Shown one piece after another: positions 4,714 through 56,914 of a stretch of 56,914 nt of DNA. Each line of letters begins with the position of its first letter. Positions within the stretch are counted from its first letter, which is position 1. Where the stretch lies: contig CP070638.1 of assembly GCA_020354025.1 (NCBI GenBank), forward strand, positions 906,960 through 963,873. The letters are read 5' to 3'. Under the pieces are notes generated by a model, which did not search any database, was not told the DNA's origin, and saw nothing but the letters and a program-made list of their open reading frames with translations. The DNA is from Fidelibacterota bacterium (GTDB taxonomy: Bacteria > Fidelibacterota > Marinisomatia > SCGC-AAA003-L08 > TS1B11). The position numbers were made by a program, and so were the translations under genes.

Positions 4714-4980
4714 AATATGCCATTGGCGGAGATTGCGGTGGATATTCAGGAATTTATCTCCCGCCGGTTCTCTCCCGAAAATAATCAGTCACTGTTATTC
4801 TAAAATCTCGCGCATGGAGCGCACCTCGCGCACCAGGCGAACGACAAACCATCTCTTTGGTCGTATAATTACCGCATGAAACATGTCGTGCCCGCTAGTA
4901 CTTTCCGCAGCGCTGCTCACCGCAGCCTCTTCGGGAAAAATCTTCAAAGTGCAGAATTTTGGTGGGATTTTGTGTGGATT
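4714..4980. other. Convergent intergenic region with weak hairpin
   Basis: This gap separates two converging genes. It holds an imperfect inverted repeat, GGCGGAGAT at 4725-4733 against ATCTCCCGCC at 4756-4765, with a 22-nt loop and no T-run, so it is only a weak terminator candidate. Its right end carries one copy of a degenerate repeat that recurs near 48.45 kb and is listed separately. I see no gene here. Confidence 0.4.
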
Positions 4981-5000
4981 TTATTCGGGGTGGCTGGGCT
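4933..5000. repeat. Degenerate dispersed repeat, copy A
   Basis: The block at 4933-5000 resembles 48442-48526. Both contain GGGATTTTGTG, a preceding GAAAAAT...AAA.TGC.GAATTT segment and a following GGGGTGGCT. Copy A overlaps the last codons and stop of rhaB (stop at 4983-4981). Copy B has about 20 extra bases before GGGGTGGCT. The similarity was judged by eye; it could be a decayed mobile element or a shared 3'-end structure. Confidence 0.4.
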
Positions 5001-6453: not shown

Positions 6454-6472
6454 TGTTGGATAAGGCGGATCA

Positions 6473-8228: not shown

Positions 8229-10463
8229 CTAGAGCATGACCTCGGCTAGGAGTTCCATCGGATGTAGCACCCGACGGCTGATCCCCGCGCGGATCTGCTC
8301 GCAACATGATATACCGCTGGCCAGGATGGTCCGGTCACCACCAGGGATCTCTGTCTGCCGGACTTGATTGAACAGGTCTTCGCCAACGCTCATACTCAGC
8401 TCATGATACTCCCGTTTGTAGCCGAAACTTCCCGCCATCCCGCAGCATTCCGCGCTCGAAGTGTCGATCTCGAAGCCTAGCTGCCGCAGCAACGTTACAG
8501 TCGGGGCGGTTGCATCAATGGTCTTCTGCTGACAGTGGCCGTGGAAAAAGATTCTTCCTCCAGCTGTTTCCTCAACGTTGAAGATCTGCTTCAGCTCGAG
8601 TTCATCTTCACCGATTATCTTCAGTAAATACTCGATCGGATCATAACTGTTGGCTTTGAGCTTCTCAAAGAGAGCTGGATTCCCGAGTAAGTGTCGGTAA
8701 TCGTGTCGGAAGAGCGCCAGCACGCTGGGTTCCACGACCACAATATCCCGGCCTTGGTCAATGCGGCTTTCAAGATAGGCCGCCGTATTCTCAGCCCTAC
8801 GGCCGGCCTTGACTATCATCCCCTGCGATAACGTGGCCCGACCCTCAGCCATCACCCGGCTCAGCTCCACCTGAACACCGAGGCACTCTAGCACCTTGAT
8901 GGTCGCCATCCCCCGCTGTGGAAGGGTGTAGTTCGTATAGACATCCGCGAACAGGAGGGCTTTCCTGTGGGGTGTCTCTTGCTCGGCATGACTGACCGAT
9001 GGAGCCTGTATCTTCCTCCATTGACGATATTGCCGGGTCAGCGGCCGGACAGCAGATTCGGGCAGGTCGGGACGACGATCCACTCCGGCCATCTTTTCCA
9101 GAAGCCAGCGCGAAGGAGATAGACGCAGGACCGAGCCGGCAAACGGGGTCACGCGGCTGCCCCACCTGGCAAAGTGATAAAAATTACCGAAGAACCGTTT
9201 TTGCAGGGAAACACCACCACCTGCCCGATCAAGGCGGCTTTTAAGAACCGTATTGAGCCAGGGAATATCGATCCGCACCGGGCACTGGGGGACGCATCGG
9301 GAACAGCCGGTGCAGAGTTCAGTGAAACGGGCTTTTTGTAACGTCCCCGTTCCCGCTTCCCAAGACCCGCCGATGCCGCCGGAGTAAGTCTCCCCGCCGA
9401 AGGCATGGCCGCCTACGGTCTGGAAATTGGCGCAGACGTTCAGACATGCACTGCACCGGATACAGTAGAGCGCTTCCCTTAAAACGGGATCCTCCCTCAT
9501 TGTCATGCGGCCATTGTCGATAAGCACCAGGTGGAACTGGCGGTCACGGGCCGGCGAACCACCGAATGAGAATGAGGGGAAATCCAGGGGAGGCGTGATG
9601 ACACTGGTATAGGAAGTCAGGGGCTGTCCCGTTCCACTGGGCCCCAGCAGCTCGATGAAGGGGGCCAGGTCTTCCCGCCGGGATACCACCTTCTCCACGC
9701 CCGCCACGGCGATATGCACCGGCGGGGCCTGGGTCACCATACGGATGTTGCCCTCGCTCTCAACCAGCACCAGCGTCCCGGTATCGGCGGCGATGACATT
9801 AGCCCCGCTGATGCCTATATCAGCCGTCAGGAATTTCTCGCGCAGCTGATCCCGGGCAAACCTGGTCAGATCCTCTCCCGAGTCCAGAGGATGGTCGGTT
9901 TCAAAGGCGGCTTTGAACAGCTGCGAAATACGCTCCCGGCTGCGATGGATCGCCGGGGCTACGATGTGCGAAGGCTGCTCACCGGACACCTGCAAAATGA
10001 ACTCGGCTAGGTCCGTTTCTACCACTTCGATACTCGCCTGCTCTAGAACACCGTTGAGCCCGATCTCTTCGGTCGTCATGGACTTGGCTTTCACTACCAG
10101 CCGCGCCCGCCGCTCCAGGCAGATCCTCTTAATATAGTAACAGGCATCAGCGGCATCGCGGGCGAGGTAGTAGTGACCTCCACGTGAAGTAACCGAGGCC
10201 TCCAGCGTCGCCAGCAGCTCCGAAAGGCTCTCGATGGCTGCTTCCTTGATAGCCCGGGCGCGATCCTTGAGCTCTTCGTAATCCGCGATATCGGCTGTGG
10301 CCTGGTAGCGCCCCAAGTTGAAGGTCTGGGTATTGCGCCGAACCGCCCCGCTTTCAACTTCCAGCGCCATTCGTATCGCCCGCTCCAGGGAACCCTTCAC
10401 GCTCTTGTCCGCCACATCCCTGGGGTGTATCTGATCAGTGGGAATTGTCCTTAGACGGGCCAT
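8229..10463 (-). CDS. LutB-LutA fusion, L-lactate oxidation iron-sulfur protein
   Basis: This 744-residue protein joins two subunits that are usually separate. Residues about 1-470 are LutB-like: a LUD domain (ADTGTLVLVESEGN) followed by two [4Fe-4S] motifs, CIRCSACLNVC and CTGCSRCVPQC. Residues about 500-744 are LutA/GlpC-like with cysteine-rich (CCG) domains. The second CCG motif is intact (HGHCQQKT ... AECCGMAGSFG). The first is degenerate: the expected CCG-x-P-x-LS site reads AEGRATLSQG. LutABC oxidises L-lactate to pyruvate in the cytoplasm. Here it would take the lactate that RhaEW makes from lactaldehyde. It lies 3 nt after lutC. A GlpC-type electron-transfer protein is a less likely reading. 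Confidence 0.85.
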   Translation of the reverse strand: MARLRTIPTDQIHPRDVADKSVKGSLERAIRMALEVESGAVRRNTQTFNLGRYQATADIADYEELKDRARAIKEAAIESLSELLATLEASVTSRGGHYYLARDAADACYYIKRICLERRARLVVKAKSMTTEEIGLNGVLEQASIEVVETDLAEFILQVSGEQPSHIVAPAIHRSRERISQLFKAAFETDHPLDSGEDLTRFARDQLREKFLTADIGISGANVIAADTGTLVLVESEGNIRMVTQAPPVHIAVAGVEKVVSRREDLAPFIELLGPSGTGQPLTSYTSVITPPLDFPSFSFGGSPARDRQFHLVLIDNGRMTMREDPVLREALYCIRCSACLNVCANFQTVGGHAFGGETYSGGIGGSWEAGTGTLQKARFTELCTGCSRCVPQCPVRIDIPWLNTVLKSRLDRAGGGVSLQKRFFGNFYHFARWGSRVTPFAGSVLRLSPSRWLLEKMAGVDRRPDLPESAVRPLTRQYRQWRKIQAPSVSHAEQETPHRKALLFADVYTNYTLPQRGMATIKVLECLGVQVELSRVMAEGRATLSQGMIVKAGRRAENTAAYLESRIDQGRDIVVVEPSVLALFRHDYRHLLGNPALFEKLKANSYDPIEYLLKIIGEDELELKQIFNVEETAGGRIFFHGHCQQKTIDATAPTVTLLRQLGFEIDTSSAECCGMAGSFGYKREYHELSMSVGEDLFNQVRQTEIPGGDRTILASGISCCEQIRAGISRRVLHPMELLAEVML

Positions 10464-11044: not shown

Positions 11045-13219
11045 CTACCGCAGGAATGCTTCCTTGAGGCCCCCATCCACCGGGATAACATGCCCGGTGG
11101 TGCGATCGGAGCGGGGGCTGAGCAGGAAGTAGCCGGCTTCCACTACGTCCCGGGGACGAATGGGGCGGCCGGTCAGCGTCCTCTGGGCATAATAGCCAGC
11201 CAGTTTTTCGATCAGCGCCATCGCCTCCTCGCTTTCATCAAAGCTAATATTGTATTTACTGAGACTGGCCATCACGCGCTCCCGGGGAAACATGGAACTG
11301 CCCTCGATGACCGTCGCTGGGCTGATCCCGTTCACCCGGATCGCGGGCGCATAGCGGATAGCCAGCTCCCGGATAAGGTGGTTCACCGCCGCCTTGCTGG
11401 CATCGTAGGGCTCGCTACCGGTCTTGGGGACCACCGCATTAGCCGAGCTGGTCAGCAGGACCGATCCTTCCGAGCCCTGTTCTCCTATTAGCACCGCAAA
11501 CTCTTCGACCAGGATGATGTTGCCGATCACGTTGACCTTCAGGACCGTATCCCACGTGGCATCCAGGAAACCATCCCCTCTGTCGGGTGGGATAAAGACA
11601 GCTGCGGTATTGACAAGGTCATCCACGCCGCCAAAATACATCGCCGCTTCCCTCAGGGCCTTTGCGACGGTTCCCCGCCGGGTTATATCCAGGGGCAAGG
11701 CCAGAGCCACGTCCCCGCCGAAGTGCCGCTTCAGTTCATCGACTGTCTCCTGGGCGGCTTCCTGGTTCCGGTCGGCTACCACCACGTGGGCTCCCTCGTG
11801 AGCCAGGCGGGTGCAGAACTCCCGGCCAATACCGCTGCCTCCCCCAACCACCATCGCCACCCGGCGGGCCATTTCCTTCTCAGGCGGCTGTCGCTGAAGC
11901 TTGGCTTCCTCCAAGGCCCAGTACTCAATGCCGAAAGCCTCCTCAGGGGAGAGCGCGACGTAATTGTTAACCACGCGATCCGGATCAATGCCCTCATCCA
12001 TAGTACCATCCGCCAGGGCCGTAGCTCCCTCCATGACGTGGATAGCGTTAACGTAGAACTCGCCTGTTATCCGGGCTTCCTTCTTGCTCTTCCCAAAGCT
12101 CAGCATGCCCACGCCCGGAATCAGGACAACCGTGGGATTAGGATCGCGCATCGCGGGGGAGTCGGCCGTCTTGTGAGAATCGTAGTAGTCGGCATAGTCC
12201 CGCCGATATTGTGTCAGGCCGGTCGCGATGGATTCCTTGAGCGAATCGAGATCGCCTTTTTGAGGATCCCAGTCAACATTAAAAGGCCGCACCTTGGTGC
12301 GAATAAAGTGGTCCGGACAGCTGGTACCCTGAAAGGCCAGACGTTGGGCATCACGGCTGCAGACAAAGCGAAGCACTTCCGGCAGGTCAACCAGCTGGCC
12401 GATGAGTCCCTTCGCCTCGCCTACCAGCCCCCTCACAAATGGCAGGACCTGAGAGGCAACCTCACGCCGGTCAGCGCGGGGCTGACAGCACTCGCCGCCA
12501 AAAAGCTCCTCACCCACAGCTTCGATCTTCCCCGCTACGAACCGTCCCAGCGCGTCAATGATCTCGATGGTGCTGCGGTAGCATCCATACTGGTCGTCAC
12601 CCCAGGTCATTAGCCCGTGTGAGGCCAGGATAATACCGTTGGCCTGGGGATCGGTCTTGAGGGCTTCGGCCAGCATCACGCCCAGCTCATATCCCGGACG
12701 CCGCCACGGCAACCACATCAGGTGGTGGTCGAACTGCCGGTTGAACTCCGCCAGCAGTTTACGGCCGTTAGCGGTTGCCGCCAGGGCAATGCCCCAATCC
12801 GGATGGGTGTGATCAATATGCTTGAAGGGCATTAGACCGTGCAGGGGAGTATCAATAGAGGCCGGGCGGTCGTGCAGGCCGAAGCGGCAAAGCGGGTAGT
12901 AGCCGACCATTTCATCTTCATAATCACTGCCTCGGTACCTGTCCTTCAGTGCGAGGAATTTGTCCATGTAGAGCCGGGCGAAGCCGTCCCGCCCCATCGA
13001 GCCGAGGTCACCACCGGACCCCTTGACCCACAATACCTCCACTTCCTGTCCCGTCAGCGGATCAGTCTGCCTGACCTTTGACGAAGTATTGCCCCCACCG
13101 AAATTGGTGATCCGCAGGTCCGAGCCGAGCAGGTTGGATCGGTAGCGCAGGGTGTCAGTCTCGTCGAGGCTCTCCGCCAGTTTGGGATCCCATTTATCCT
13201 CCAGATACTTCAGTGACAT
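11045..13219 (-). CDS. rhaEW: Bifunctional rhamnulose-1-phosphate aldolase / lactaldehyde dehydrogenase
   Basis: A 724-residue two-domain enzyme. Residues about 1-430 form a class II aldolase with the zinc-histidine segments HIDHTHPDWG and ILASHGLMTWG. Residues about 455-724 form a short-chain dehydrogenase with VVGGGSGIGREF (NAD-binding) and the YDASK catalytic pair. The family (B. subtilis YuxG type, RhaEW) cleaves L-rhamnulose 1-phosphate to dihydroxyacetone phosphate and L-lactaldehyde and oxidises the lactaldehyde to lactate. GGAGG lies 9 nt before the ATG. Two Lut proteins follow directly, giving a direct route to pyruvate. The length and domain order match the known family. Confidence 0.92.
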   Translation of the reverse strand: MSLKYLEDKWDPKLAESLDETDTLRYRSNLLGSDLRITNFGGGNTSSKVRQTDPLTGQEVEVLWVKGSGGDLGSMGRDGFARLYMDKFLALKDRYRGSDYEDEMVGYYPLCRFGLHDRPASIDTPLHGLMPFKHIDHTHPDWGIALAATANGRKLLAEFNRQFDHHLMWLPWRRPGYELGVMLAEALKTDPQANGIILASHGLMTWGDDQYGCYRSTIEIIDALGRFVAGKIEAVGEELFGGECCQPRADRREVASQVLPFVRGLVGEAKGLIGQLVDLPEVLRFVCSRDAQRLAFQGTSCPDHFIRTKVRPFNVDWDPQKGDLDSLKESIATGLTQYRRDYADYYDSHKTADSPAMRDPNPTVVLIPGVGMLSFGKSKKEARITGEFYVNAIHVMEGATALADGTMDEGIDPDRVVNNYVALSPEEAFGIEYWALEEAKLQRQPPEKEMARRVAMVVGGGSGIGREFCTRLAHEGAHVVVADRNQEAAQETVDELKRHFGGDVALALPLDITRRGTVAKALREAAMYFGGVDDLVNTAAVFIPPDRGDGFLDATWDTVLKVNVIGNIILVEEFAVLIGEQGSEGSVLLTSSANAVVPKTGSEPYDASKAAVNHLIRELAIRYAPAIRVNGISPATVIEGSSMFPRERVMASLSKYNISFDESEEAMALIEKLAGYYAQRTLTGRPIRPRDVVEAGYFLLSPRSDRTTGHVIPVDGGLKEAFLR

Positions 13220-45918: not shown

Positions 45919-46290
45919 GATCGAGTCTGATATCCAGGTTTCATCACCGATACTAAATCAGGAAGATTATCGGTTCAAATACTGAGAAGCCACAGAGTCA
46001 TGCAATCGCTTAAAGCCTGCCCCGGGATTTCTACTCCCTCCCTTTCAATTGATGAAGATTGTAGGAGGGGCTATTTCATGGTTGTCGCTCGTCCATGGTT
46101 ACTCTCTTTGAGGGCAGTCTCCTCCCCTGCCTTAGGCGTGGTGCGGATTTGATCTTGGAAATACGAAATATGTCTCTTAGTTTATTAATCCTAACTGTTT
46201 ATAAAGTCTTGCATAAGTACACACTCATATCTCATGTAAATTGTCGTGGCGCATTTAAATCTCAAGATTGAGTATACAGGAGGCAAGTCT
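45919..46290. other. Intergenic region before lipoprotein pair
   Basis: About 370 nt with no plausible gene. A hairpin can be drawn from CCCTCC near 46033 to GGAGGG near 46061. At the right end AGGAGG (46278-46283) is followed 7 nt later by ATT, the proposed start of the next gene. Confidence 0.4.
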
Positions 46291-47190
46291 ATTAAACGGA
46301 ATGCACTGATTCTCACATTACTCTGCGGACTATTCCTTATAGGTGGTGGTTGCACGGCCAAGAAGAAATACGTCATCGATAAAAATGCCGCGGCTATGAA
46401 TGTCAAGTATGCCGGTGTTCGTTCCTCGGCCTACGGTATCGAGCCATTTCCTGAACCGGCTGCATGGCAAAGCGCGATGACGGACATGCAAGCCCGCTTT
46501 GTGAGTTCTGTCCCCTGTGGCATCTGGATAGTTGGTGTTATGGGTGGAAAATATACTTGCCGCCTGGAATTCCCAGCCGACGGTCGTCAAGACAGTAATA
46601 TTGTATATCTTGATTATGATAAACACGAGCGTTATCTGGACTATTTTGATGCAGAGGGGATAAAGGTCTTTCTGCAAGTAGAGCCGGCGCATGCCGATGT
46701 GACCAACCTTATTGACATTGTGTTGAACCGCTACAAGCACCATACCTGCGTGATCGGTTTCGGCGTGGACGTGGAATGGCACCGCGAGGCGGATAATCCG
46801 GATTGGGGCGTGAAAATAAGTGACACATTAGCTCGAGACTGGGAAACGCAGGTGAAAGCCCACAATCCCGATTATCAACTGTTCCTGAAGCATTGGGATC
46901 GAGACTGGATGCCGCCGTCCTACCGCGGTGATCTCATCTTTGTTGATGACAGTCAGATGCTAGAGAATTTTTATGCCATGTTGGAGGAATTTGTTGACTA
47001 TTGGTCCGGTTATTTTGAACCGAATATGGTATTCTTCCAGATCGGCTACCGTTCCGACAAGCCATGGTGGCAGAAGCTGGACGATCCACCCAGGGACATT
47101 GGCGTGGCAATTGCTCAAAATATCTCTCAGAATTGTGGCGTATTTTGGGTTGATTTCACACTACAGGAAGTTCTCCCACTCAATGAGTAA
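46291..47190 (+). CDS. Lipoprotein with glycosidase-like fold, possible ATT start
   Basis: About 299 residues. The reading frame begins at GTG (46246), but a perfect AGGAGG with 7-nt spacing lies before ATT at 46291. Starting there gives a clean lipoprotein signal (basic N-terminus, LLCGLFLIGGGC). The GTG start would put 15 hydrophilic residues ahead of it. The rest (YFDAEGIKVFLQVEPAH, VIGFGVDVEWH, LFLKHWDRDW) looks like an alternating beta/alpha barrel with acidic residues at strand ends, as in glycoside hydrolases. I do not recognise the family. It is followed 32-41 nt later by a second lipoprotein of similar flavour. Confidence 0.65.
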   Translation: MKRNALILTLLCGLFLIGGGCTAKKKYVIDKNAAAMNVKYAGVRSSAYGIEPFPEPAAWQSAMTDMQARFVSSVPCGIWIVGVMGGKYTCRLEFPADGRQDSNIVYLDYDKHERYLDYFDAEGIKVFLQVEPAHADVTNLIDIVLNRYKHHTCVIGFGVDVEWHREADNPDWGVKISDTLARDWETQVKAHNPDYQLFLKHWDRDWMPPSYRGDLIFVDDSQMLENFYAMLEEFVDYWSGYFEPNMVFFQIGYRSDKPWWQKLDDPPRDIGVAIAQNISQNCGVFWVDFTLQEVLPLNE

Positions 47191-47231
47191 GCCACGTATC
47201 TATAAGATTATAATTAACACCGGTGCCTGAG

Positions 47232-48350
47232 ATGAAAAGGATAACCAGCAACCGCCAGGCCTTGGGGATGTTCATCTTTCTCGGGCTGGTCTTTGTGACG
47301 GCGGGGTGCCGGCAGCGATCGCAACAGATCCGCAAGCATGAACAGATGATTGGTGTCAAAGTATATGCCATTGAACAAGCACCTGCAGCGCTTTTTCAAT
47401 ATTGGGATGAACTGGGTATCAATACGGTATTTGCAGCTCCATCCTTGCTGAACACGGAATTCAGGATGTCGGCTCGCGCTCACCAGATCGAAACGTTCAT
47501 CATTGTGCCGATCTTTTTCGATCCGGATACATTGCACTTAAATCCTGACCTGTATGCCGTGACCAAGGATGGAAATACGGCCGTTGAAGAGTGGGTAGAG
47601 TTCGTCTGCCCGTCCCGTAAGGAGTATCGGGAACGAAAAATAGAGACTATCAGGACGCTCATCCGGGAGCTTGATCCTGACGGATTAAGCCTGGACTTCA
47701 TCCGTCATTTTGTGTTCTGGGAGAAGGTCTATCCGGACCGTCAGCCGGAGAACATCCCGAATACTTGTTTTGATTCCCAATGCTTGCAAAAATTTCAGAT
47801 GGATCTTAATCTGTCGATACCGGATTCATTGAGCCAGGTACCTGAGATCGCCGCCTGGATCAGAGATAACTATCTGGCAGAATGGACCGAGTGGAAGTGC
47901 GGACTCATAACGGGCATGATCCGTGAAATCGTGGATGCAGCCCGTGAGATCAATCCCGGAATAAAAATAAATGTTCATGCCGTACCCTGGCGGCAGGACG
48001 ATTTCGGTAATGCCATCAGGAACGTTGTCGGACAGGATTTTTCAAAGATCGCCCCCCATGTCGATATGTTATCGCCGATGACCTATGCCCATATGGTGAA
48101 ACAAAAGCCGGAGTGGGTGAACTCTGTCGTGGAGGATCTAGCCGGAATGGTGAAATGCCGGATTATTCCCAGTATTCAAGTGAATGAGGCTTATCTCACC
48201 GAACCACTGACCGTGGCTGAGTTTGAAAAATCGCTAATAGCAGCACTGAAAAAGCCTTCATCGGGAGTCATATTTTGGTCTTGGGAACAGCTAGTTGAAA
48301 ATCCTGAAAAGATGGAAATTTTAAGGTTCGTTCTTAAAAATAATCGATAG
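47232..48350 (+). CDS. Lipoprotein with glycosyl-hydrolase-like TIM barrel
   Basis: About 372 residues from ATG at 47232; a GTG at 47223 adds three residues. A lipoprotein signal ends in FVTAGC. Residues about 45-370 look like a barrel of the putative glycosyl hydrolase (GHL10 / DUF4015-like) group: GVKVYAIEQAPAALFQYW at the start, LDPDGLSLDFIRHFVFW near the middle, DMLSPMTYAHM, and the closing GVIFWSWEQL. Asp in GLSLDFIRH could be catalytic. It probably acts on sugars at the cell surface. It is almost certainly co-transcribed with the lipoprotein upstream. Confidence 0.7.
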   Translation: MKRITSNRQALGMFIFLGLVFVTAGCRQRSQQIRKHEQMIGVKVYAIEQAPAALFQYWDELGINTVFAAPSLLNTEFRMSARAHQIETFIIVPIFFDPDTLHLNPDLYAVTKDGNTAVEEWVEFVCPSRKEYRERKIETIRTLIRELDPDGLSLDFIRHFVFWEKVYPDRQPENIPNTCFDSQCLQKFQMDLNLSIPDSLSQVPEIAAWIRDNYLAEWTEWKCGLITGMIREIVDAAREINPGIKINVHAVPWRQDDFGNAIRNVVGQDFSKIAPHVDMLSPMTYAHMVKQKPEWVNSVVEDLAGMVKCRIIPSIQVNEAYLTEPLTVAEFEKSLIAALKKPSSGVIFWSWEQLVENPEKMEILRFVLKNNR

Positions 48351-48856: not shown

Positions 48857-49213
48857 ATGATCCTCGAACAGATTGTCGCCATTCTTGATGGTGACTTCCT
48901 GACCAGGCAGAATCACCGGCAGAAGAATGTACAGACCGGGTGCGGGTGCGACCTGATGAGCGATGTCTTGGCATTCATTAAGCGTGACGCTCTCCTCTTG
49001 ACGGGCTTGACCAACACCCAGGTGATCCGAACTGCCGAGATGGCCGATATCCAGGCTGTCTGCTTCGTGCGGGGAAAAAAGCCCACCAAGGAAGTAATCG
49101 CCCTCGCCGAGGAAAAGGAGATCACACTACTGGCTACATCACTGCCATTATTCGAGGCCTGCGGTCGTTTGTATCGCAGCGGCCTGGCCGGTTGCTCTGA
49201 GTATGAAGACTAA
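48857..49213 (+). CDS. DRTGG-domain regulatory protein (first copy)
   Basis: A 118-residue single-domain protein with SDVLAFIKRDALLLTG, AVCFVRGKKPTKEVIALA and TLLATSLPLFEACGRLY. These match the DRTGG domain, a small ligand-sensing fold known from phosphotransacetylase and CBS proteins. Small DRTGG proteins recur beside HydABC/Hnd hydrogenase and NADH-oxidoreductase operons; their ligand is unknown. It is the first gene of a five-gene signalling run and is followed by CBS-HATPase after 11 nt. Confidence 0.8.
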   Translation: MILEQIVAILDGDFLTRQNHRQKNVQTGCGCDLMSDVLAFIKRDALLLTGLTNTQVIRTAEMADIQAVCFVRGKKPTKEVIALAEEKEITLLATSLPLFEACGRLYRSGLAGCSEYED

Positions 49214-49224
49214 CACTATCGCCC

Positions 49225-50172
49225 ATGGCCCGTACGAAAGAAGTTACAAGGGTTCAGGAATTAATCTATGAGATGAAGGTCGGGCAGGTCATGTCTACAG
49301 AGGTTATCACCGTTGATCTCGACAGCCAGATGAGTAACCTTCGAAATTTGCTCGGAGAGAAGCGGATCTCCGGCGTACCAGTGATGGATAACGAGCAACT
49401 GGTGGGTATGGTCAGCATCGAAGACTTCATTACTTGCCTGGCTGACCGGAATTCGGACTGTTCCGTTCGGGAGCAGATGAGTCGGGATGTCAAGACGCTC
49501 TACGATACAGACCCCTTGGTCCATGCCGTCCAGGAGTTCGAGCGCCATGGCTACGGCCGCTTCCCGGTCATCAATCGCGAGACGGGGAAGTTGGCCGGGA
49601 TCATCACTAAGGGCGATATCGTGAGGGGCCTGCTCAACAAGATGGAGATTGACTATCACGAGGAGGAAACCCAGCGCCGACTGATTGACCGTTCATTTGA
49701 GGAGATCATCACCGAGAAGACGAGATTCACTCTGCGATATGACATCGTTGGCAAAGACTTCAATCGGGCCGGTGAAACCTCCAGTAAACTGAAGGAGGCG
49801 TTAAAGCGGATGGGGATACCTCCCGATATCCTGCGCCGCGTGGCTATCGCCACCTACGAAGCAGAAATGAATACGGTCATTTATACTAGCGGCGGGAAAC
49901 TGGCCGCACGGATTACTCCCGATGAGATCGCCGTAGAGGTTCAGGATTCAGGTCCGGGCATCAAAGACATTGACAAGGCCATGAAGCCCGGCTTCTCCAC
50001 CGCTACCGACCAGGTACGGGAATTGGGCTTCGGCGCCGGTATGGGTCTGCCCAACATAAAGAAGTGCGCCGATCAGATGCAATTGGAATCCACGATAGGG
50101 GAAGGCACACGACTAAAATTCTCCGTACACATTAAAAGAAGCGAGGATCATGGAACTAACAACCATCGTTGA
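49225..50172 (+). CDS. CBS-pair protein fused to RsbW-like HATPase
   Basis: 315 residues. Two CBS domains (about 15-135: VGQVMSTEVITVDL ... REQMSRDVKTLYDTDPLVH) could sense adenine nucleotides. A HATPase domain (about 160-310) has the N-box-like YEAEMNTVIYT, DSGPGI, GFGAGMGLPNIKK and GTRLKF, as in anti-sigma-factor kinases. A histidine phosphorylation site is lacking. The architecture links energy charge to a switch protein and is known from clusters near bifurcating hydrogenases. Its end overlaps the next gene by 23 nt. Confidence 0.85.
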   Translation: MARTKEVTRVQELIYEMKVGQVMSTEVITVDLDSQMSNLRNLLGEKRISGVPVMDNEQLVGMVSIEDFITCLADRNSDCSVREQMSRDVKTLYDTDPLVHAVQEFERHGYGRFPVINRETGKLAGIITKGDIVRGLLNKMEIDYHEEETQRRLIDRSFEEIITEKTRFTLRYDIVGKDFNRAGETSSKLKEALKRMGIPPDILRRVAIATYEAEMNTVIYTSGGKLAARITPDEIAVEVQDSGPGIKDIDKAMKPGFSTATDQVRELGFGAGMGLPNIKKCADQMQLESTIGEGTRLKFSVHIKRSEDHGTNNHR

Positions 50173-50488
50173 GACACTGGACCTGGACGTGAAAACCACC
50201 GAAGGAGATTTCTCACAAGAAATCTCGGGCGTCTATGTGAGTGATTTGTTGAGCGATGTCCTGGCACATGCTGATGAGGACAATCTGTGGATTACCCTCC
50301 AGGGGCATCCAAATATTATTGCGGTGGCTTCTATGAAGGACCTCGTAGGTATCGTACTGGTAAACGGCCGGATGCCAGAAGATGAGACGCTGCGGAAGGC
50401 TAATGATGAGAAAATCCCCATCATGACCACGGAGATGCAGGCGTTTGACCTGGCAGGAAAGCTGTATGGCCTTTTGGGGAAGGAATGA
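50150..50488 (+). CDS. DRTGG-domain regulatory protein (second copy)
   Basis: 112 residues with VSDLLSDVLAHADEDNLWITLQ and GIVLVNGRMPEDETLRKA, the same layout as the first DRTGG protein but only moderately similar, so the two are paralogues rather than a recent duplication. GCGAGGATC precedes the ATG. Its stop overlaps the start of the PHP gene as ATGA. The two DRTGG proteins flank the CBS-HATPase. Confidence 0.8.
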   Translation: MELTTIVETLDLDVKTTEGDFSQEISGVYVSDLLSDVLAHADEDNLWITLQGHPNIIAVASMKDLVGIVLVNGRMPEDETLRKANDEKIPIMTTEMQAFDLAGKLYGLLGKE

Positions 50489-51225
50489 GTATTATTCATG
50501 CTGACCTGCACATCCATACCTGCCTCTCTCCCTGCGCCGAACTGGAAATGTCACCGAAGGGAATCGTGAGTGAAGCGGTCAATAAGGGCATTGATATGAT
50601 CGCCGTCTGCGATCATAATTCCGCCGAAAATGTAGCAGCCGTCATTGAGGCCTCCCAACAGACCAAGCTTACCGTACTGCCGGGAATGGAGATCACGTCG
50701 AAGGAAGAGGTCCATATCGTTGGCATCTTTCGTATCCCGGAAGACACCGACCACATGCAGGCACTGGTCTACGGGCACCTTGAAGGACATAATGATACTG
50801 AAACCTTCGGTCTGCAGGTAGTGGTTGAAGCCGACGGGACTGTGACGGGATACAATGAACGGTTGTTGATTGGAGCCACCGATCTGTCGCTGGAACACGT
50901 TGTCCAGGCCATCCACGACCACAACGGCTTGGCCATCGCCGCCCACATTGATCGGGAAGGTTTCGGCATCCTTGGGCAGCTGGGTTTTATTCCACCGGAC
51001 CTTGATCTCGACGCCCTGGAGGTGTCCTCCAGGACGAGCCTCAAGGACGCCACAGCCACCTTCACTGAATACGCTGACTATCCCTTCGTCCAGTCATCCG
51101 ACGCACACCTTCTGGATGCCATCGGCTCGGGGATAACACCCCTCATGTTGGAAGCAGCTACTTTCGACGAACTCAGGATGGCGTTAAAGGGCGACCAGGG
51201 ACGCGGTGTTCATTATGAAGGGTGA
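50485..51225 (+). CDS. PHP-domain metal-dependent phosphoesterase
   Basis: 246 residues with the PHP metal motifs ADLHIHTCLSPCAE (6-19), AVCDHNSAENV, AAHIDREGFG and SSDAHLLDAIG. Relatives are phosphoesterases of the TrpH/YciV type that cleave nucleoside phosphates or short RNA. In this setting it may degrade or make the nucleotide ligand sensed by the CBS or DRTGG domains, but that is inference. It overlaps the previous gene as ATGA and is followed by the small HATPase after 12 nt. Confidence 0.88.
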   Translation: MSIIHADLHIHTCLSPCAELEMSPKGIVSEAVNKGIDMIAVCDHNSAENVAAVIEASQQTKLTVLPGMEITSKEEVHIVGIFRIPEDTDHMQALVYGHLEGHNDTETFGLQVVVEADGTVTGYNERLLIGATDLSLEHVVQAIHDHNGLAIAAHIDREGFGILGQLGFIPPDLDLDALEVSSRTSLKDATATFTEYADYPFVQSSDAHLLDAIGSGITPLMLEAATFDELRMALKGDQGRGVHYEG

Positions 51226-51237
51226 TGAAGGGGAGCG

Positions 51238-51699
51238 ATGGAGGACATGTCACTACATATTCTGGACATTGTGGAGAATTCCATCCGCGCCGGCGCCAAG
51301 GAGGTGCACATCCGAATCAACGAGGATGCAGCGGCGGACCGACTGGAGATCGAGATTGGAGATGACGGCGCCGGAATGGATCGGGCCACGCTGGAGAAAG
51401 CCCTGGACCCCTTCTATACCACCAAGTCGGTTAGGAAGGTGGGGCTGGGACTCTCTATGTTCCGGGAAGCGGCCCGAGCCGCCGGTGGGGATCTGGTCAT
51501 CCAGTCCCAGACGGGAAAGGGCACTTGGGTGAAAGCTACCTTCCAGCACAGTCATATCGACCGCCAACCCATGGGGGACCTGGCTAAAACCCTGGAGGTC
51601 CTTACCATCACCAATCCGGATGTGCGTTTCCGCTACTATCATCGAGAAGACGGCAAGGAGCACCATTTCGATTCTAATGGCCTATACCCTGAGAGCTAG
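51238..51699 (+). CDS. Small stand-alone HATPase (histidine-kinase-like ATP-binding protein)
   Basis: 153 residues covering only a GHKL ATP-binding domain: LDIVENSIRAGA (N box), GDDGAGMD (G1), the VGLGLSMFREAARAAGG lid region and GKGTWVKATF. There is no phospho-acceptor His domain. With the CBS-HATPase it gives two GHKL proteins in one cluster, as seen near NADH-dependent hydrogenase operons. Partner proteins are not in the window. 74 nt separate it from the redox operon, across which base composition changes. Confidence 0.85.
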   Translation: MEDMSLHILDIVENSIRAGAKEVHIRINEDAAADRLEIEIGDDGAGMDRATLEKALDPFYTTKSVRKVGLGLSMFREAARAAGGDLVIQSQTGKGTWVKATFQHSHIDRQPMGDLAKTLEVLTITNPDVRFRYYHREDGKEHHFDSNGLYPES

Positions 51700-51773: not shown

Positions 51774-52976
51774 ATGATAATACAAAGCGATCCCACATTA
51801 GCGGCAGAAGTCCGCAGGTATGGCAAGTTTGATATCAACGCCTGTCTGCAATGTGGTAGTTGCACGGTCACATGTGATTTAACTAGTGATTCAACTTCAT
51901 TCCCTCGCAGGACAATCCAATATGTTTTGATGGGCTTGAGGAGACTTTTGAGAGGTAGCCTGGAACCGTGGTTATGCTACTATTGCGGTGATTGTTCCAC
52001 GGCCTGTCCCAGACAGACAGAACCCGGCGAATCGATGATGACTTTCCGTCGGTATCTCACGGCACAATATGACTGGACAGGACTCTCCTCAAAATTGTAC
52101 CAATCGAAGGTGTGGGAGATCGGGGCGCTGCTTGTTGTAGGTGCCTTCATTACGCTCCTGATATGGCTCTTTCACGGACCCCTCATTACTGACCACGTCG
52201 AACTCAACACCTTCGCTCCCCCGGAGATTGTACACCTCTGTGACCTCATACTGGCTGGAATGCTCGCGTTTTTTCTCTTCTCAAATGCTTTTCGTATGTA
52301 CTGGTTCACCATGCACCCGGACAGCGATGCTGGAGTACTTGATGTCATGAGGGGTTTTAAACAGGACGGCTTTGGATACATCACATACCAGGGAGAAAAG
52401 GTCAGGATACCTCTCAGTTCTTTCTTGGCAGAAGCCAGGACACTGATAGTGCATGCATTCACTCAGAAACAGTTTATGAGCTGCAAAGACAATATGGGTC
52501 GATGGATAAAGCACTGGCTGCTGGCATCGGGGTACGTACTGATGTTATTCATGGTGGTTGTATTTCTATTGTGGTTTCAGACCGATAATATCTATCCCCT
52601 TTACCATCCCCAGAGATGGTTGGGCTATTACGCTACTGCTGTGCTGATCTTCGGCACGGTAGAGATCCTGATTGGCCGCATTAGGAAGAGCGAGCAGATA
52701 CACAAGTTTTCTGATTTCAGTGACTGGCTGTTCCCGATATTGTTGTTACTTACAGTTTTGAGTGGAATCCTGGTTCACATTTTCAGGTATGAGGGATTAC
52801 CACTGGCAACTTATTACACGTACGCAATTCACTTGATAATAGCCGGGCCGATGCTGGTGGTCGAGGTCCCGTTTGGCAAATGGGCTCACCTTTTATATCG
52901 TCCACTAGCGCTTTACTTCAATGCAGTTAAAGAAAGTGCGATACAAAATCAACTAACAAAAGACGAAGTCCAGTAA
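51774..52976 (+). CDS. QmoC-like HdrC-cytochrome b fusion, quinone-facing electron transfer subunit
   Basis: 400 residues. An N-terminal HdrC-type domain has two [4Fe-4S] sets: Cys24/27/30/34 (CLQCGSCTVTC) and Cys68/71/74/78 (CYYCGDCSTAC). Six membrane segments follow (about 113-133, 148-172, 245-270, 285-305, 320-340, 348-370) with His in HIFRYEG, YAIHLIIAGP and WAHLLYRP, as in HdrE/DsrM/NarI haem b proteins. This HdrC-HdrE layout is that of QmoC, which exchanges electrons with menaquinone. No qmoAB or apr genes are here; instead HdrA-NuoE follows 2 nt later. It probably anchors the complex to the membrane. Confidence 0.85.
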   Translation: MIIQSDPTLAAEVRRYGKFDINACLQCGSCTVTCDLTSDSTSFPRRTIQYVLMGLRRLLRGSLEPWLCYYCGDCSTACPRQTEPGESMMTFRRYLTAQYDWTGLSSKLYQSKVWEIGALLVVGAFITLLIWLFHGPLITDHVELNTFAPPEIVHLCDLILAGMLAFFLFSNAFRMYWFTMHPDSDAGVLDVMRGFKQDGFGYITYQGEKVRIPLSSFLAEARTLIVHAFTQKQFMSCKDNMGRWIKHWLLASGYVLMLFMVVVFLLWFQTDNIYPLYHPQRWLGYYATAVLIFGTVEILIGRIRKSEQIHKFSDFSDWLFPILLLLTVLSGILVHIFRYEGLPLATYYTYAIHLIIAGPMLVVEVPFGKWAHLLYRPLALYFNAVKESAIQNQLTKDEVQ

Positions 52977-52978
52977 TC

Positions 52979-53869
52979 ATGGAACATAATAGAACAGAGG
53001 ATAACAAAGTTGGTGCTGCCCTAGTAGTTGGTGGTGGGATCGGTGGAATGCAGGCGGCGCTCGATTTAGCCGAATCCGGGATAAAGGTCTATCTGGCTGA
53101 CAATAAATCCTCTATCGGAGGGGTAATGTCTCAACTTGATAAGACATTTCCCACCAACGATTGTGCCATGTGCACGATGGCACCAAGATTAGTTGAAATC
53201 GGCCGGCACAAAGACATTGAGAAAATCACTTTAAGCGAAGTCGAGAGCATAACGGGACAGCCCGGGAATTTCTCAGTAACAATAAAGAAGAATCCGCGCT
53301 ACATAGATGATACAAAATGCACTGGCTGCGGTGCCTGTGTTTCGAATTGTCCCACTAGAAATACGGTTCAACCCGAGGAAATTGAGGATATCGTTCTCGA
53401 ATCTCAATTTGATGAAGAGGTAACAGGAATATTAGCAAAACATAGGGATAGAAAAGGTCCCTTAATGCCGATCCTTCAAGACATCAATGCCGCTTACAAT
53501 TATTTCCCTGAAAACATATTGCGATATGTGTCACAGGAAACAGGTTACTCCCTGGCCCACATCAACCGCATAGCCACGTTCTACAGCGCATTCAGTCTAA
53601 AGCCCATAGGCAAGCATGTAATAAATATGTGCATGGGCACCGCCTGTTACGTGCGTGGAGCCGAGTTGCTGCTTGAGAAGTTTACCGAAGTATTGGGAAT
53701 AGGTGAGGGTGAGACAACACCCGATATGCTTTTTACAATCAAACCGGTCAGGTGTATCGGTTGCTGTGGACTTGCACCTGTTATGATTACCGGGGATGAC
53801 GTATACGGGAAACTTCAGCCTAAGGACATTCCTGGGATAGTAAATAAGTATCAAGCTAAGGAGCAGTAA
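52979..53869 (+). CDS. HdrA N-terminal half fused to NuoE-like [2Fe-2S] subunit
   Basis: 296 residues. Residues about 14-127 match HdrA: Rossmann VVGGGIGGMQAALDLA, SQLDKTFPTNDCAMC, PRLVEIGRHKDI and the [4Fe-4S] set CTGCGACVSNC. HdrA should continue with an NxFxxGL...PQAVPN segment, but the sequence switches at about 130-140 to a NuoE/24-kDa domain: a helical N-terminus (INAAYNYFPENILRYVS) and a thioredoxin-like fold with CMGTAC (about 218-223) and CIGCC (about 259-263), the four [2Fe-2S] ligands. The missing HdrA part reappears at the end of the gene starting at 56234. FAD binding is likely. The start lies 2 nt after the QmoC-like gene. Confidence 0.88.
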   Translation: MEHNRTEDNKVGAALVVGGGIGGMQAALDLAESGIKVYLADNKSSIGGVMSQLDKTFPTNDCAMCTMAPRLVEIGRHKDIEKITLSEVESITGQPGNFSVTIKKNPRYIDDTKCTGCGACVSNCPTRNTVQPEEIEDIVLESQFDEEVTGILAKHRDRKGPLMPILQDINAAYNYFPENILRYVSQETGYSLAHINRIATFYSAFSLKPIGKHVINMCMGTACYVRGAELLLEKFTEVLGIGEGETTPDMLFTIKPVRCIGCCGLAPVMITGDDVYGKLQPKDIPGIVNKYQAKEQ

Positions 53870-53872
53870 CAA

Positions 53873-54256
53873 ATGCCCAAATTGACGATTGAAGAATTGA
53901 GAAAGAAAAGGGAGTCAACCAAGAAGAGTATTTACTTGAGAGAAGGCAACTTTAAGGGGAAAGTAACTGTTCATATGGGAACCTGTGGTATCGCTGCAGG
54001 AGCTCGAGAAATAATGAGTACGTTCCTGGATGAATTCGATGACAGAGAGATAACCGACATAATGCTCACTTCCTCTGGTTGCGCCGGCTTGTGTTCTGAG
54101 GAACCGATGGTCACGATAGAAATGGAGGACCATGCTCCCGTCAAGTATGGGAAACTCAATCCTGAAAAGACAAAAAAAATACTTAATGAACATATTATCG
54201 AGGGGAACATGGTCGAGGAGTATATACTTGGTATAGGTTCCGAAAGGGCAGGATAA
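53873..54256 (+). CDS. HndB-like thioredoxin-fold [2Fe-2S] protein
   Basis: 127 residues. After a charged N-terminus comes a thioredoxin-like ferredoxin fold: HMGTCGIAAGAREI, then SGCAGLCSEEPMVTI, which holds the other cysteines, and KYGKLNPEKTKKIL near the end. It resembles HndB of NADP-reducing hydrogenases and the free C-terminal domain of NuoE. Only three cysteines sit in typical ligand positions (one in MGTCG, two in GCAGLC), so cluster binding is less certain than in its neighbours. It lies 3 nt after the HdrA-NuoE gene, and its stop overlaps the NuoF start by one base. Confidence 0.82.
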   Translation: MPKLTIEELRKKRESTKKSIYLREGNFKGKVTVHMGTCGIAAGAREIMSTFLDEFDDREITDIMLTSSGCAGLCSEEPMVTIEMEDHAPVKYGKLNPEKTKKILNEHIIEGNMVEEYILGIGSERAG

Positions 54257-56142
54257 TGGCCGAAAAGAGGCGCATAGAATTAATGGCGTGCGCGGGTACG
54301 GGCTGTGTTGCCGGTGGTGCTTTCCAGATAATCGAAGAATTGGGGAAAGAGATCGATGCTCGCGGACTCGGTGAGGAGGTTTCCATAGTGCCAACCGGCT
54401 GCAATGGCTTCTGCGGTCAAGGTCCACTCATGGTCGTGATACCTGATAATATTTTCTATGGGTGGCTTTCACTGGATGATATCCCTCATCTCGTTGAAGA
54501 ACATTTTCTCAAGGGCAGGCCTGTTGAAAAACTGATGTTCACGCCGCCAGAAGAAAAAGAACCGCTTCCACTGCTCTCGGAAATTCCGTTCTTCAGAAAG
54601 CAGCTGCTGATTGTTCTGAGAAACAAAGGGATCATTGATCCCGAAAAAATTGACGACTATATCGCTAGAGACGGCTATGTAGCTATAGAAAAAGTTCTTA
54701 CCTCAATGTCACCGGAAAATGTTATAGACGAAGTCTCGAAAGCAGGGCTGAGAGGTCGTGGCGGTGCAGGTTTCCCTACCGGACTGAAATGGAAAATAGC
54801 CAGTCAGCAGGATAAAACACCGAAATACTTGATAGCAAACTGTGATGAAGGTGATCCGGGTGCATACATGGACCGGAGTGTGCTCGAGTCTGACCCGCAT
54901 TCTGTTATCGAAGGCATGTCTATTGCTGCGTATGCAATAAGCTCGTCAGAGGGATTTATCTATGTCAGGACAGAGTACCCGCTGGCGTTAAAGCGGATGG
55001 AGACGGCCATTTCCCAGGCAAGAGAATATGGGCTTTTAGGTCAGGATATTTTAGGTTCCGGTTTTGATTTCGACATAGAGATAAGAGGCGGTTCAGGCGC
55101 TTTTGTGTGCGGCGAAGAAACCTCTTTGATACATTCGATTGAGGGGGATATTCCCGAACCCAGGCAGCGTCCCCCCTTCCCGGCGCAGTCAGGACTCTGG
55201 GAATGTCCTACAGTTATTAACAATGTCGAGACACTGGCGAATCTGCCTGTGATAATCGCCAGAGGTGCAGACTGGTATTCAGGAATAGGTACGGAGACTT
55301 CTAAGGGTACCAAGATATTCTCCCTGGTTGGCAAGATAAATAATACCGGTCTAATTGAAGTTCCAATGGGGATAACTCTCAATGAAGTGATCTATGAGAT
55401 CGGTGGTGGTATTCCGGACGGCAAAGCATTCAAAGCTGTGCAGACCGGAGGGCCTTCTGGAGGATGTATACCTTCCAGCCTGATAGATTCTCCGATAGAT
55501 TTTGAATCGTTGAAACAAGCAGGCTCAATGATGGGATCCGGTGGGATGATCGTTATGGATGAAGATACGTGTGTGGTGGACGTCTCAAAATTCTTTATCC
55601 AGTTCACGAACGATGAGTCCTGTGGGAAATGTGTATCCTGCCGTGACGGGAGCGATGCATTGCTGGAAGTGCTCAACAGGATATCGGATGGCGAGGGCCA
55701 GGAAGGTGACGTGGAATTTTTAGAAGAACTGGCCGAGACTGTCAAAGATGCCTCCATGTGTGGACTGGGTCAAACTCTGCCAAATCCTGTCCTGTCAACA
55801 CTGAGATATTTCAGGGATGAGTATGACGCGCATATTAATGAGAAACGATGTCCCGCGCTCCACTGTAGAAACCTGATACAATACTATATTGATCCTGACA
55901 AATGTGTCGGATGCCTTAAGTGCCTGAAAAATTGTCCCACCGAGGCAATAATGGGGGAATTGAAACATATTCATATTATAGATCAGGAGAAGTGTTCGAA
56001 ATGTGGGCAGTGCCTGGAGGAATGTCCTCCTAAGATATCCGCAGTGATAAAAGCCACCGGCAGTGACATTGACAATCTCGAACAACTTCCCGAGATCGTT
56101 GCCTGTTCCGATTGGAAAACGATGAAAATTGGAGCTGCCTGA
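54256..56142 (+). CDS. NuoF/HydB-type NADH-binding flavoprotein with extra iron-sulfur domains
   Basis: 628 residues. Residues 1-90 form a thioredoxin-like [2Fe-2S] domain with Cys12, Cys17, Cys49 and Cys53. The core (about 130-545) is NuoF: GLRGRGGAGFPTGLKW at about 164 and GDPGAYMDRS near 202 (FMN and NADH sites), GSGAFVCGEETSL at about 277, and the N3-type [4Fe-4S] motif ESCGKCVSCRDG near 455 with a later Cys in MCGLGQTLPNP. Two C-terminal ferredoxin motifs follow, CVGCLKCLKNC at about 550 and CSKCGQCLEEC at about 580. This is the layout of HydB/HndC in bifurcating enzymes. It should exchange electrons with NAD(H) in the cytoplasm. Confidence 0.93.
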   Translation: MAEKRRIELMACAGTGCVAGGAFQIIEELGKEIDARGLGEEVSIVPTGCNGFCGQGPLMVVIPDNIFYGWLSLDDIPHLVEEHFLKGRPVEKLMFTPPEEKEPLPLLSEIPFFRKQLLIVLRNKGIIDPEKIDDYIARDGYVAIEKVLTSMSPENVIDEVSKAGLRGRGGAGFPTGLKWKIASQQDKTPKYLIANCDEGDPGAYMDRSVLESDPHSVIEGMSIAAYAISSSEGFIYVRTEYPLALKRMETAISQAREYGLLGQDILGSGFDFDIEIRGGSGAFVCGEETSLIHSIEGDIPEPRQRPPFPAQSGLWECPTVINNVETLANLPVIIARGADWYSGIGTETSKGTKIFSLVGKINNTGLIEVPMGITLNEVIYEIGGGIPDGKAFKAVQTGGPSGGCIPSSLIDSPIDFESLKQAGSMMGSGGMIVMDEDTCVVDVSKFFIQFTNDESCGKCVSCRDGSDALLEVLNRISDGEGQEGDVEFLEELAETVKDASMCGLGQTLPNPVLSTLRYFRDEYDAHINEKRCPALHCRNLIQYYIDPDKCVGCLKCLKNCPTEAIMGELKHIHIIDQEKCSKCGQCLEECPPKISAVIKATGSDIDNLEQLPEIVACSDWKTMKIGAA

Positions 56143-56233
56143 TATTGATGGTTGATCCTAATAGACAAGGATTAGCTAATATCCGAATGATCATTCTAGA
56201 GCTTATAGTAAATATAATAAACCGAGAGTGGCT
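56143..56233. other. Short gap before the NuoG-HdrA gene
   Basis: 91 nt, A/T-rich, unlike the 0-3 nt joints of the rest of the operon. There may be a secondary promoter; TATAGTAAATATAATAAA near 56203-56220 includes -10-like sequence. Nothing else is seen. Confidence 0.35.
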
Positions 56234-56914
56234 ATGATCGAGCTGACTATCAATGGTAATAAAAGCGAATTCCCTGAAGATAAGACTCTACTGGAATGTT
56301 TCAGGAGTGTCGGGATAAAAATACCGACACTGTGTTATCATAAAGCACTTTCTCCTTATGGCGCCTGCAGGTTATGCCTTGTTGAGGTCAAACAGGAAGG
56401 AAGAGACCCATCTATCCAGGCATCCTGTTCTTATCCGGCGTTAGATGGATTATCTGTCGAAACTGATTCAGACAGGGTTATTAGGGCAAGAAAAGTAGTC
56501 GCGGAGCTTCTTCTTGCGAGGTGCCCTGATTCGGAGAATATCAAGAGGGTAGCATCTGATCTCGGGGTCGAAGAGCCTAGAATTCAGAAGAAAAATGATG
56601 ATTGCATTTACTGTGGGCTTTGTGAAAGAATTTGCCGGGAGAGAATGGGGAGAACAGCGATCGGATTCTCAGGCAGGGGACCGGGGAAAACAATTGAGCC
56701 ACCGTTAGGCAAACACAACGAAATGAGCTGGACTTGCGGCGCTTGTGATTTCATATGCCCTGTTGGGAAAAAGGTATCAGGATTAACAAGCATAAATGAT
56801 CCATTGCCCATTCCTAATCCATATAATTATGGCTTAGACCAGAAACCTGTCGTGCATATTCTTTATCCTCAGGCGGTTCCCAATACTCCCGTAATAGATA
56901 AGGACAAATGTATT
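56234..56914 (+). CDS. NuoG-type iron-sulfur N-terminus fused to C-terminal half of HdrA (3' truncated)
   Basis: 227 codons are open to the window end, starting at ATG 56234. Residues 1-65 form a NuoG/HydA-type [2Fe-2S] ferredoxin with Cys34, 45, 48 and 65. The LLLARCPDSENIK stretch replaces the usual His-Cys cluster. Further [4Fe-4S] motifs are Cys123/126/129/133 and a second with Cys167/170/174 (CGACDFICPVG). From about residue 190 the sequence turns into HdrA: PNPYNYGLDQKPVVHI, then LYPQAVPNTPVIDKDKC. That is where HdrA stopped in the gene at 52979. The rest of HdrA presumably lies beyond base 56914. A [FeFe]-hydrogenase H-cluster is not seen in this part. Confidence 0.85.
   Translation, partial: MIELTINGNKSEFPEDKTLLECFRSVGIKIPTLCYHKALSPYGACRLCLVEVKQEGRDPSIQASCSYPALDGLSVETDSDRVIRARKVVAELLLARCPDSENIKRVASDLGVEEPRIQKKNDDCIYCGLCERICRERMGRTAIGFSGRGPGKTIEPPLGKHNEMSWTCGACDFICPVGKKVSGLTSINDPLPIPNPYNYGLDQKPVVHILYPQAVPNTPVIDKDKCI

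Follow-up and report, generated by a model that had tools for sequence, protein, structure and literature searches.

A conserved five-gene DRTGG, kinase and PHP accessory module of electron-bifurcating enzymes, found in a Fidelibacterota genome and across anaerobic bacteria, with a possible role in enzyme control

Analysis of a 56,914-nt stretch of a Fidelibacterota genome (contig CP070638.1, positions 906,960 to 963,873 of the forward strand; hereafter the window) revealed a run of five genes ahead of a redox operon, encoding two DRTGG proteins (D1 and D2), a kinase in which a CBS pair is joined to a HATPase domain (CBSH), a predicted PHP phosphoesterase and a lone GHKL ATPase (HATP) (Table 1). 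All five open reading frames that a preliminary description had placed at positions 48857–51699 were present on the + strand, in the order DRTGG – CBS-HATPase – DRTGG – PHP – HATPase. The same description called them one overlapping unit; the unit is indeed tight, but overlap occurs at only two of the four internal junctions (23 nt between genes 2 and 3 and 4 nt between genes 3 and 4), the others being spaced by 11 nt (genes 1 and 2) and 12 nt (genes 4 and 5). A further 74 nt separate HATP from the QmoC/HdrC-like gene that follows. Scanning the region for promoters and terminators was uninformative, with results under the shuffled expectation. Our study found that the five-gene set is not a chance arrangement, but a conserved accessory module in many anaerobic bacteria, and that it belongs to electron-bifurcating enzymes of the Bfu family (HydBC/NuoEF-like).

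Table 1. Genes of the five-gene module and of the adjoining redox operon, in window coordinates
Feature	Position	Strand	Evidence
DRTGG1 (D1)	48857..49213	+	118 aa; Pfam DRTGG 34.6 bits, cut-off 25.2
CBS-CBS-HATPase kinase (CBSH), input/kinase slot	49225..50172	+	315 aa; Pfam CBS 92.5 bits, HATPase_c 38.3 bits
DRTGG2 (D2)	50150..50488	+	112 aa; Pfam DRTGG 22.5 bits, under the single-sequence cut-off of 25.2
PHP, predicted phosphoesterase	50485..51225	+	246 aa; Pfam PHP and PHP_C
Lone GHKL ATPase (HATP)	51238..51699	+	153 aa; Pfam HATPase_c 63.7 bits
QmoC/HdrC-like membrane Fe-S subunit, first downstream redox gene	51774..52976	+	QmoC model 177.5 bits, under its cut-off
Short HdrA (FAD/4Fe-4S) and NuoE (BfuC) in a single open reading frame	52979..53869	+	profile matches
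2Fe-2S protein	53873..54256	+	PF01257 25.4 bits
NuoF-type (BfuB) NADH-binding subunit	54256..56142	+	NuoF model 499 bits
HndD/BfuA-type subunit, start only	56228..56914	+	HndD profile 200 bits

The spread of the module was assessed in 158 distinct loci, annotated with profiles built from the loci themselves. Sampling was by similarity to the PHP protein of the window and two clades are oversampled, so that the fractions given here are not an unbiased census. The complete five-part set was present in 129 of the 158 loci, from many phyla, and in nearly all of these the order was D1, kinase, D2, PHP and HATP, with a sixth gene, HydS, lying between the kinase and D2 in some. This order recurs in distant phyla, with CBS-HATPase identities of, for example, 47–72 %. 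Within the phylum of the window, 9 of 245 genomes gave CBS-HATPase matches (E ≤1e-20), two of which covered the HATPase part only. A PHP-profile scan of GTDB genomes returned at least 588 pattern matches and at least 537 confirmed relatives, from which 80 loci were retained; the record labels include Nitrospirae, Deltaproteobacteria, Aminicenantes, WOR-3, KSB1, Bacteroidetes and Planctomycetota, among others. Two other groups had the PHP protein in 37 of 347 genomes (drawn across a phylum) and in 118 of 155 (a single class).

Linkage to one enzyme core was close to complete. Of the complete modules, 73 were flanked by 8 kb or more both before and after PHP; NuoE, 2Fe2S or NuoF genes lay alongside 71 of these, and the remaining two had MvhG/MvhA ([NiFe]-hydrogenase) or FdhA genes nearby. 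A survey of co-occurrence with NADH-dependent redox operons had been proposed at the outset, and the expected link was borne out: complete modules were not found equally often far from such operons, the only unlinked ones being three loci (L130–L132) that are weighed below. Twelve of 12 tested genomes with unlinked or partial modules encoded a BfuB-type NuoF, and two of these (G564 and G580) turned out to be linked.

Some loci carry PHP-HATP alone. In the NuoF loci of genomes with such a solitary pair (L190–L195), D2 adjoined NuoE in five of six, with a divergent D1-kinase pair beside D2-NuoE in four (L191, L192, L193 and L195); the sixth NuoF locus, L194, was ended by a contig edge. These split loci indicate that the module separates into D1-kinase, D2-NuoE and PHP-HATP. 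In L135 and L139–L142 the solitary PHP-HATP pair stands beside unrelated genes, and the rest of the module was at the NuoEF locus where this was retrieved. The split-module clade also contains NuoF-type open frames of ~1030 aa, compared to the usual 620 (G564:C258, G580:C55, G500:C20 and G335:C16).

The HATPase part of the kinase resembles the anti-sigma kinases SpoIIAB and RsbW. SpoIIAB was the best NCBIfam model for CBSH, though far under its cut-off, and the CBSH model (pLDDT 76.5, pTM 0.47; moderate overall confidence) matched SpoIIAB structures 1l0o and 1til with a TMt of 0.85, a likeness in GHKL fold. The ATP-box G1/G2 residues are invariant in an alignment of homologues, and kinase activity is predicted from sequence and model. 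Neither CBSH nor HATP had a Pfam match to HisKA/DHp with its phospho-acceptor His, a kind of domain that SpoIIAB and RsbW also lack, and neither is classed as a two-component histidine kinase. Unlike SpoIIAB and RsbW, the kinase of the module is fused to CBS domains or tied to D1 or HydS; D1 and the HATPase form one protein in L013 and L014, which argues for D1-kinase contact. In the structural model, the CBS part of CBSH was nearest to the CBS pairs of AcuB, a CBS-ACT adaptor controlled by Ap4A. The AcuB pair binds nucleotide and its ACT output acts on the deacetylase AcuC (PMC13039410), whereas the output in the window is a GHKL kinase.

The kinase slot carries swappable inputs, these being a fused CBS pair, a separate HydS or neither, and never both. 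Among the 129 complete modules, 20 (the window included) had the CBS pair, N-terminal on the kinase, 38 had a bare kinase followed by HydS, 71 had neither and none had both. HydS is a protein of ~440 aa that combines two [4Fe-4S] sites with an [FeFe]-hydrogenase large-subunit domain and, at the C-terminus, a FeS motif, and its four H-cluster cysteines were kept in 25/26, 26/26, 26/26 and 26/26 sequences. It is like the putative sensory [FeFe]-hydrogenases (TmHydS; TamHydS, M2e) in its Fe_hyd_lg_C domain, in these four cysteines and, in L051, in having no Cys at the C299 equivalent, a position that is not Cys in sensory hydrogenases (PMC8163306, PMC10055695). TamHydS, as HydS of the module, adjoins a HATPase and a bifurcating enzyme (PMC8163306). 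The module of the window differs in having CBS domains in place of a putative sensory hydrogenase. HydS occurred with hydrogenase-type rather than FdhA-type operons (28 vs 2), and the bare kinase showed the opposite distribution (4 vs 42).

Likeness to SpoIIAB raises the idea of classical partner switching, in which a sigma factor would be controlled and the redox operon would respond at the level of transcription, and the preliminary description had suggested looking for a STAS or sigma partner. None emerged. The STAS domain had no match in the window's own genome (95 % complete), with a control that was positive in 10 of 14 genomes, and none in five related genomes carrying the module; more distant carriers have STAS elsewhere in the genome. 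Nor did STAS, sigma or PP2C genes stand out when representatives of the gene clusters recurring across 80 loci were read by eye. That no STAS domain was found in the genome makes classical SpoIIAB/RsbW switching unlikely in this organism, and we regard that explanation as largely refuted and highly improbable, despite SpoIIAB being the top model for the kinase.

D1 and D2 match the DRTGG family, although D2 falls below the cut-off, and to that extent their earlier description as two DRTGG sensors holds. The sensor role is an assumption, since the GDR element is gone, being kept in 0 of 139 D1 and 2 of 142 D2 homologues. Both share a family-specific D-x-x-S-D motif, found in 133/139 D1 and 137/142 D2 homologues. 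D32, S35 and T49 of D1 are invariant in 83 homologues, and D2 has the signature W-x-T-x-Q-x-H-x-N in 141 of 142; it is D2 that stays beside NuoE when the module splits. Redox-sensing cysteines in D1 were considered and dropped, as conservation of C102 (66/83) and C113 (41/83) was insufficient. The best solved relative of both proteins, although distant, is the regulatory region of CBS-pyrophosphatase (CBS-DRTGG-CBS; PDB 3L2B and 3L31), which likewise pairs a CBS pair with DRTGG. In the module, however, these parts are on separate chains, a kinase is attached and GDR is lost, and Pfam found no DHH/DHHA2 catalytic domains of CBS-pyrophosphatase in the five proteins. A third DRTGG domain in the same genome, in a BioD-like protein (G000:C1:1446094-1446414, L001), has the usual GDR element, a contrast to D1 and D2. 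By eye, a generic DRTGG protein of this genome reads GAMGVDHAL, seemingly at the position of D-x-x-S-D.

The PHP protein was modelled with very high confidence (pLDDT 96.7) and its nearest structures were PHP proteins of the EndoQ and RNase AM type. H9, H11, D43, H44, E69, H77, H154, D206 and H208 are invariant or nearly so in 86 homologues, which gives the HxH, DH, E, H, H and DxH set of the family; those acting as metal ligands are presumed from knowledge of the family. Where an SDG metal motif is usual, this protein has SPC, Pro replacing Asp and Cys17 lying adjacent; Cys13, Cys17 and Cys42 are near-invariant. The metal site may therefore have a thiolate within it or close by. The pattern H.H.CLSPC was present in 135 of 150 PHP homologues, the window reading HTCLSPC.

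Resemblance of PHP to RNase AM and to 2yb1, the structure of a PHP protein together with AMP and phosphate, bears on the proposal that the module makes and destroys its own ligand, CBS and DRTGG binding an adenine dinucleotide or pAp-like molecule that PHP hydrolyses and to which the HATPase responds. The likeness of the CBS pair to Ap4A-binding AcuB and the relation of DRTGG to the CBS-pyrophosphatase regulatory region also fit. Several features do not: there is no synthetase in the module, the GDR element is missing and the nucleotide role leans on a CBS pair that 109 of the 129 complete loci lack while keeping PHP and both DRTGG proteins. The making of a ligand was therefore not upheld and we consider the proposal improbable.

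HATP follows PHP in nearly every locus. Similar lone HATPase genes are known from the bifurcating hydrogenase operons of Acetobacterium woodii (HydE) and Acetomicrobium mobile (HisK), and the products of hydE, hisK and hydD are not in the purified enzymes (PMC3315566, PMC8880783, PMC9304861), as would suit either regulation or assembly. Signalling, assembly or maturation has been suggested for HydE and HisK (PMC3315566, PMC8880783, PMC9304861). The single accessory genes HydE, HisK, HydD and HydP are already known. From its name alone, we take HydP of A. mobile to be a PHP protein. The operons of A. woodii and the NiFe-HydABCSL operon of A. mobile have been described gene by gene; the papers searched make no mention of two DRTGG genes, a CBS/HydS kinase slot or a fixed order. 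More widely, the open literature yielded no account of the five-gene set, its spread or the CBS/HydS exchange, a scope that leaves most subscription journals outside.

Assembly or maturation is the main rival to a regulatory role. The GHKL ATPases would act as chaperones of the Hsp90 or MutL type, D1 and D2 as scaffolds and PHP in processing, so as to load flavin and Fe-S clusters or to dock subunits of the bifurcating complex. Tight linkage to one enzyme core despite differing catalytic partners (hydrogenase or formate dehydrogenase) is consistent with this, as is D2 accompanying NuoE, and those who studied the A. woodii and A. mobile enzymes propose 'assembly or signalling' and 'maturation and/or regulation' (PMC3315566, PMC8880783). 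However, an assembly factor has no obvious need for a SpoIIAB-type kinase with exchangeable sensor-like parts (the CBS pair or HydS). The related NADH-dependent, non-bifurcating HydAB of Syntrophus aciditrophicus was reportedly active when produced in Escherichia coli (PMC7311640), which also speaks against assembly while not being a direct test. On balance, we see assembly as a serious but rather unlikely explanation.

The redox operon of the window had been described as an HdrA/Nuo hybrid standing in place of a hydrogenase, and this did not hold. Overlapping HdrA and NuoE matches occur in the same fashion in L022, L085, L093, L098 and L101, several of them on gap-free contigs, which rules out their joining as an assembly artefact and makes it a trait of CBS-type [NiFe]-hydrogenase operons rather than a hydrogenase substitute. 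The window ends at the start of a 100-N gap inside the HndD gene (L095:2875-2974; G000:C1 from 963874). Beyond this gap lie an unrelated contig and a second 100-N gap, directly followed by the C-terminus of MvhA and a HyaD-type hydrogenase maturation protease, ~6 kb past the window end; the gaps in L095 (G000:C1:961000-980000) are 2875-2974, 9158-9257 and 13087-13186. The intervening contig would appear to be misplaced, and as the assembly is gap-scaffolded, claims of gene order near the window end need care. No MvhG orthologue was found in the assembly, the best matches being 35 % identical. In the intact same-genus locus L101, the order is HdrC-like – HdrA/NuoE – 2Fe2S – NuoF – (D1, CBSH, D2, PHP, HATP) – HndD – HdrA – HndD – MvhD – MvhG – MvhA. 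A similar operon occurs in L098, where the module lies at the end. The operon of the window is probably of the [NiFe]-hydrogenase type and interrupted by scaffold gaps. The contig inside it carries imidazolonepropionase-like and transporter-like genes. Upstream of the module, across a gap of ~500 nt, two adjoining lipoprotein-like proteins are encoded (window 46246-48350), the second with weak matches to the glycosyl-hydrolase-like families DUF4015/GHL6.

Gene order, linkage, conservation of the ATP box, exchange of the input and the lack of a STAS match in the genome were all observed, and beside them we infer every phosphorylation step of the reading that we favour, a STAS-free kinase/phosphatase switch acting post-translationally on the bifurcating enzyme, whose chance we put a little short of even. 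An energy or redox signal would reach the SpoIIAB-like kinase, through adenine nucleotides bound to the CBS pair in the window and the HydS H-cluster elsewhere. The kinase, in contact with D1, may then phosphorylate a protein target, either a DRTGG protein, which with its D-x-x-S-D motif would stand in for STAS, or the enzyme itself. D2 would dock on the NuoE/NuoF core, and PHP, partnered with HATP, could serve as the opposing metal-dependent phosphoesterase, the outcome being a bifurcating complex switched after translation. A more specific and general form, in which DRTGG replaces STAS as phospho-acceptor, PHP replaces PP2C and the kinase takes CBS (sensing adenylates), a sensory [FeFe]-hydrogenase (sensing H2 or redox state) or no input to gate bifurcation after translation across many anaerobic phyla, is speculative and, taken whole, unlikely.

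Several results weigh against the favoured switch. On the kinase tree the three input states were clustered, with one or two changes for CBS and ~5 for HydS, and a single CBS clade was not rejected (p-AU 0.89); swaps have therefore been few, and the exclusivity of CBS and HydS is weaker evidence than 20 vs 38 suggests. Independence from ancestry was not shown for the association of HydS with hydrogenase and the bare kinase with FdhA operons, where one supported independent pair only was found. PHP relatives of known function recovered by structure search (EndoQ and RNase AM) act on nucleic acids or nucleotides, not phosphoproteins. Finally, L130–L132 have a full CBS-type module with NuoEF absent from the sequence examined; the three are similar in sequence and each has one short flank, and their genomes carry a Bfu NuoF operon elsewhere. 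In L131 (about 1-7000), genes resembling those for microcompartment shell proteins and aldehyde dehydrogenase, named by eye, lie near the module.

In summary, many anaerobes have their energy economy set by bifurcating enzymes, whose cellular control is poorly known. One fixed module that accompanies both hydrogenase and formate-dehydrogenase types, and that carries a swappable sensor, is a concrete and testable candidate for the control of bifurcation, and it points to a defined kinase as partner of the putative sensory [FeFe]-hydrogenases.

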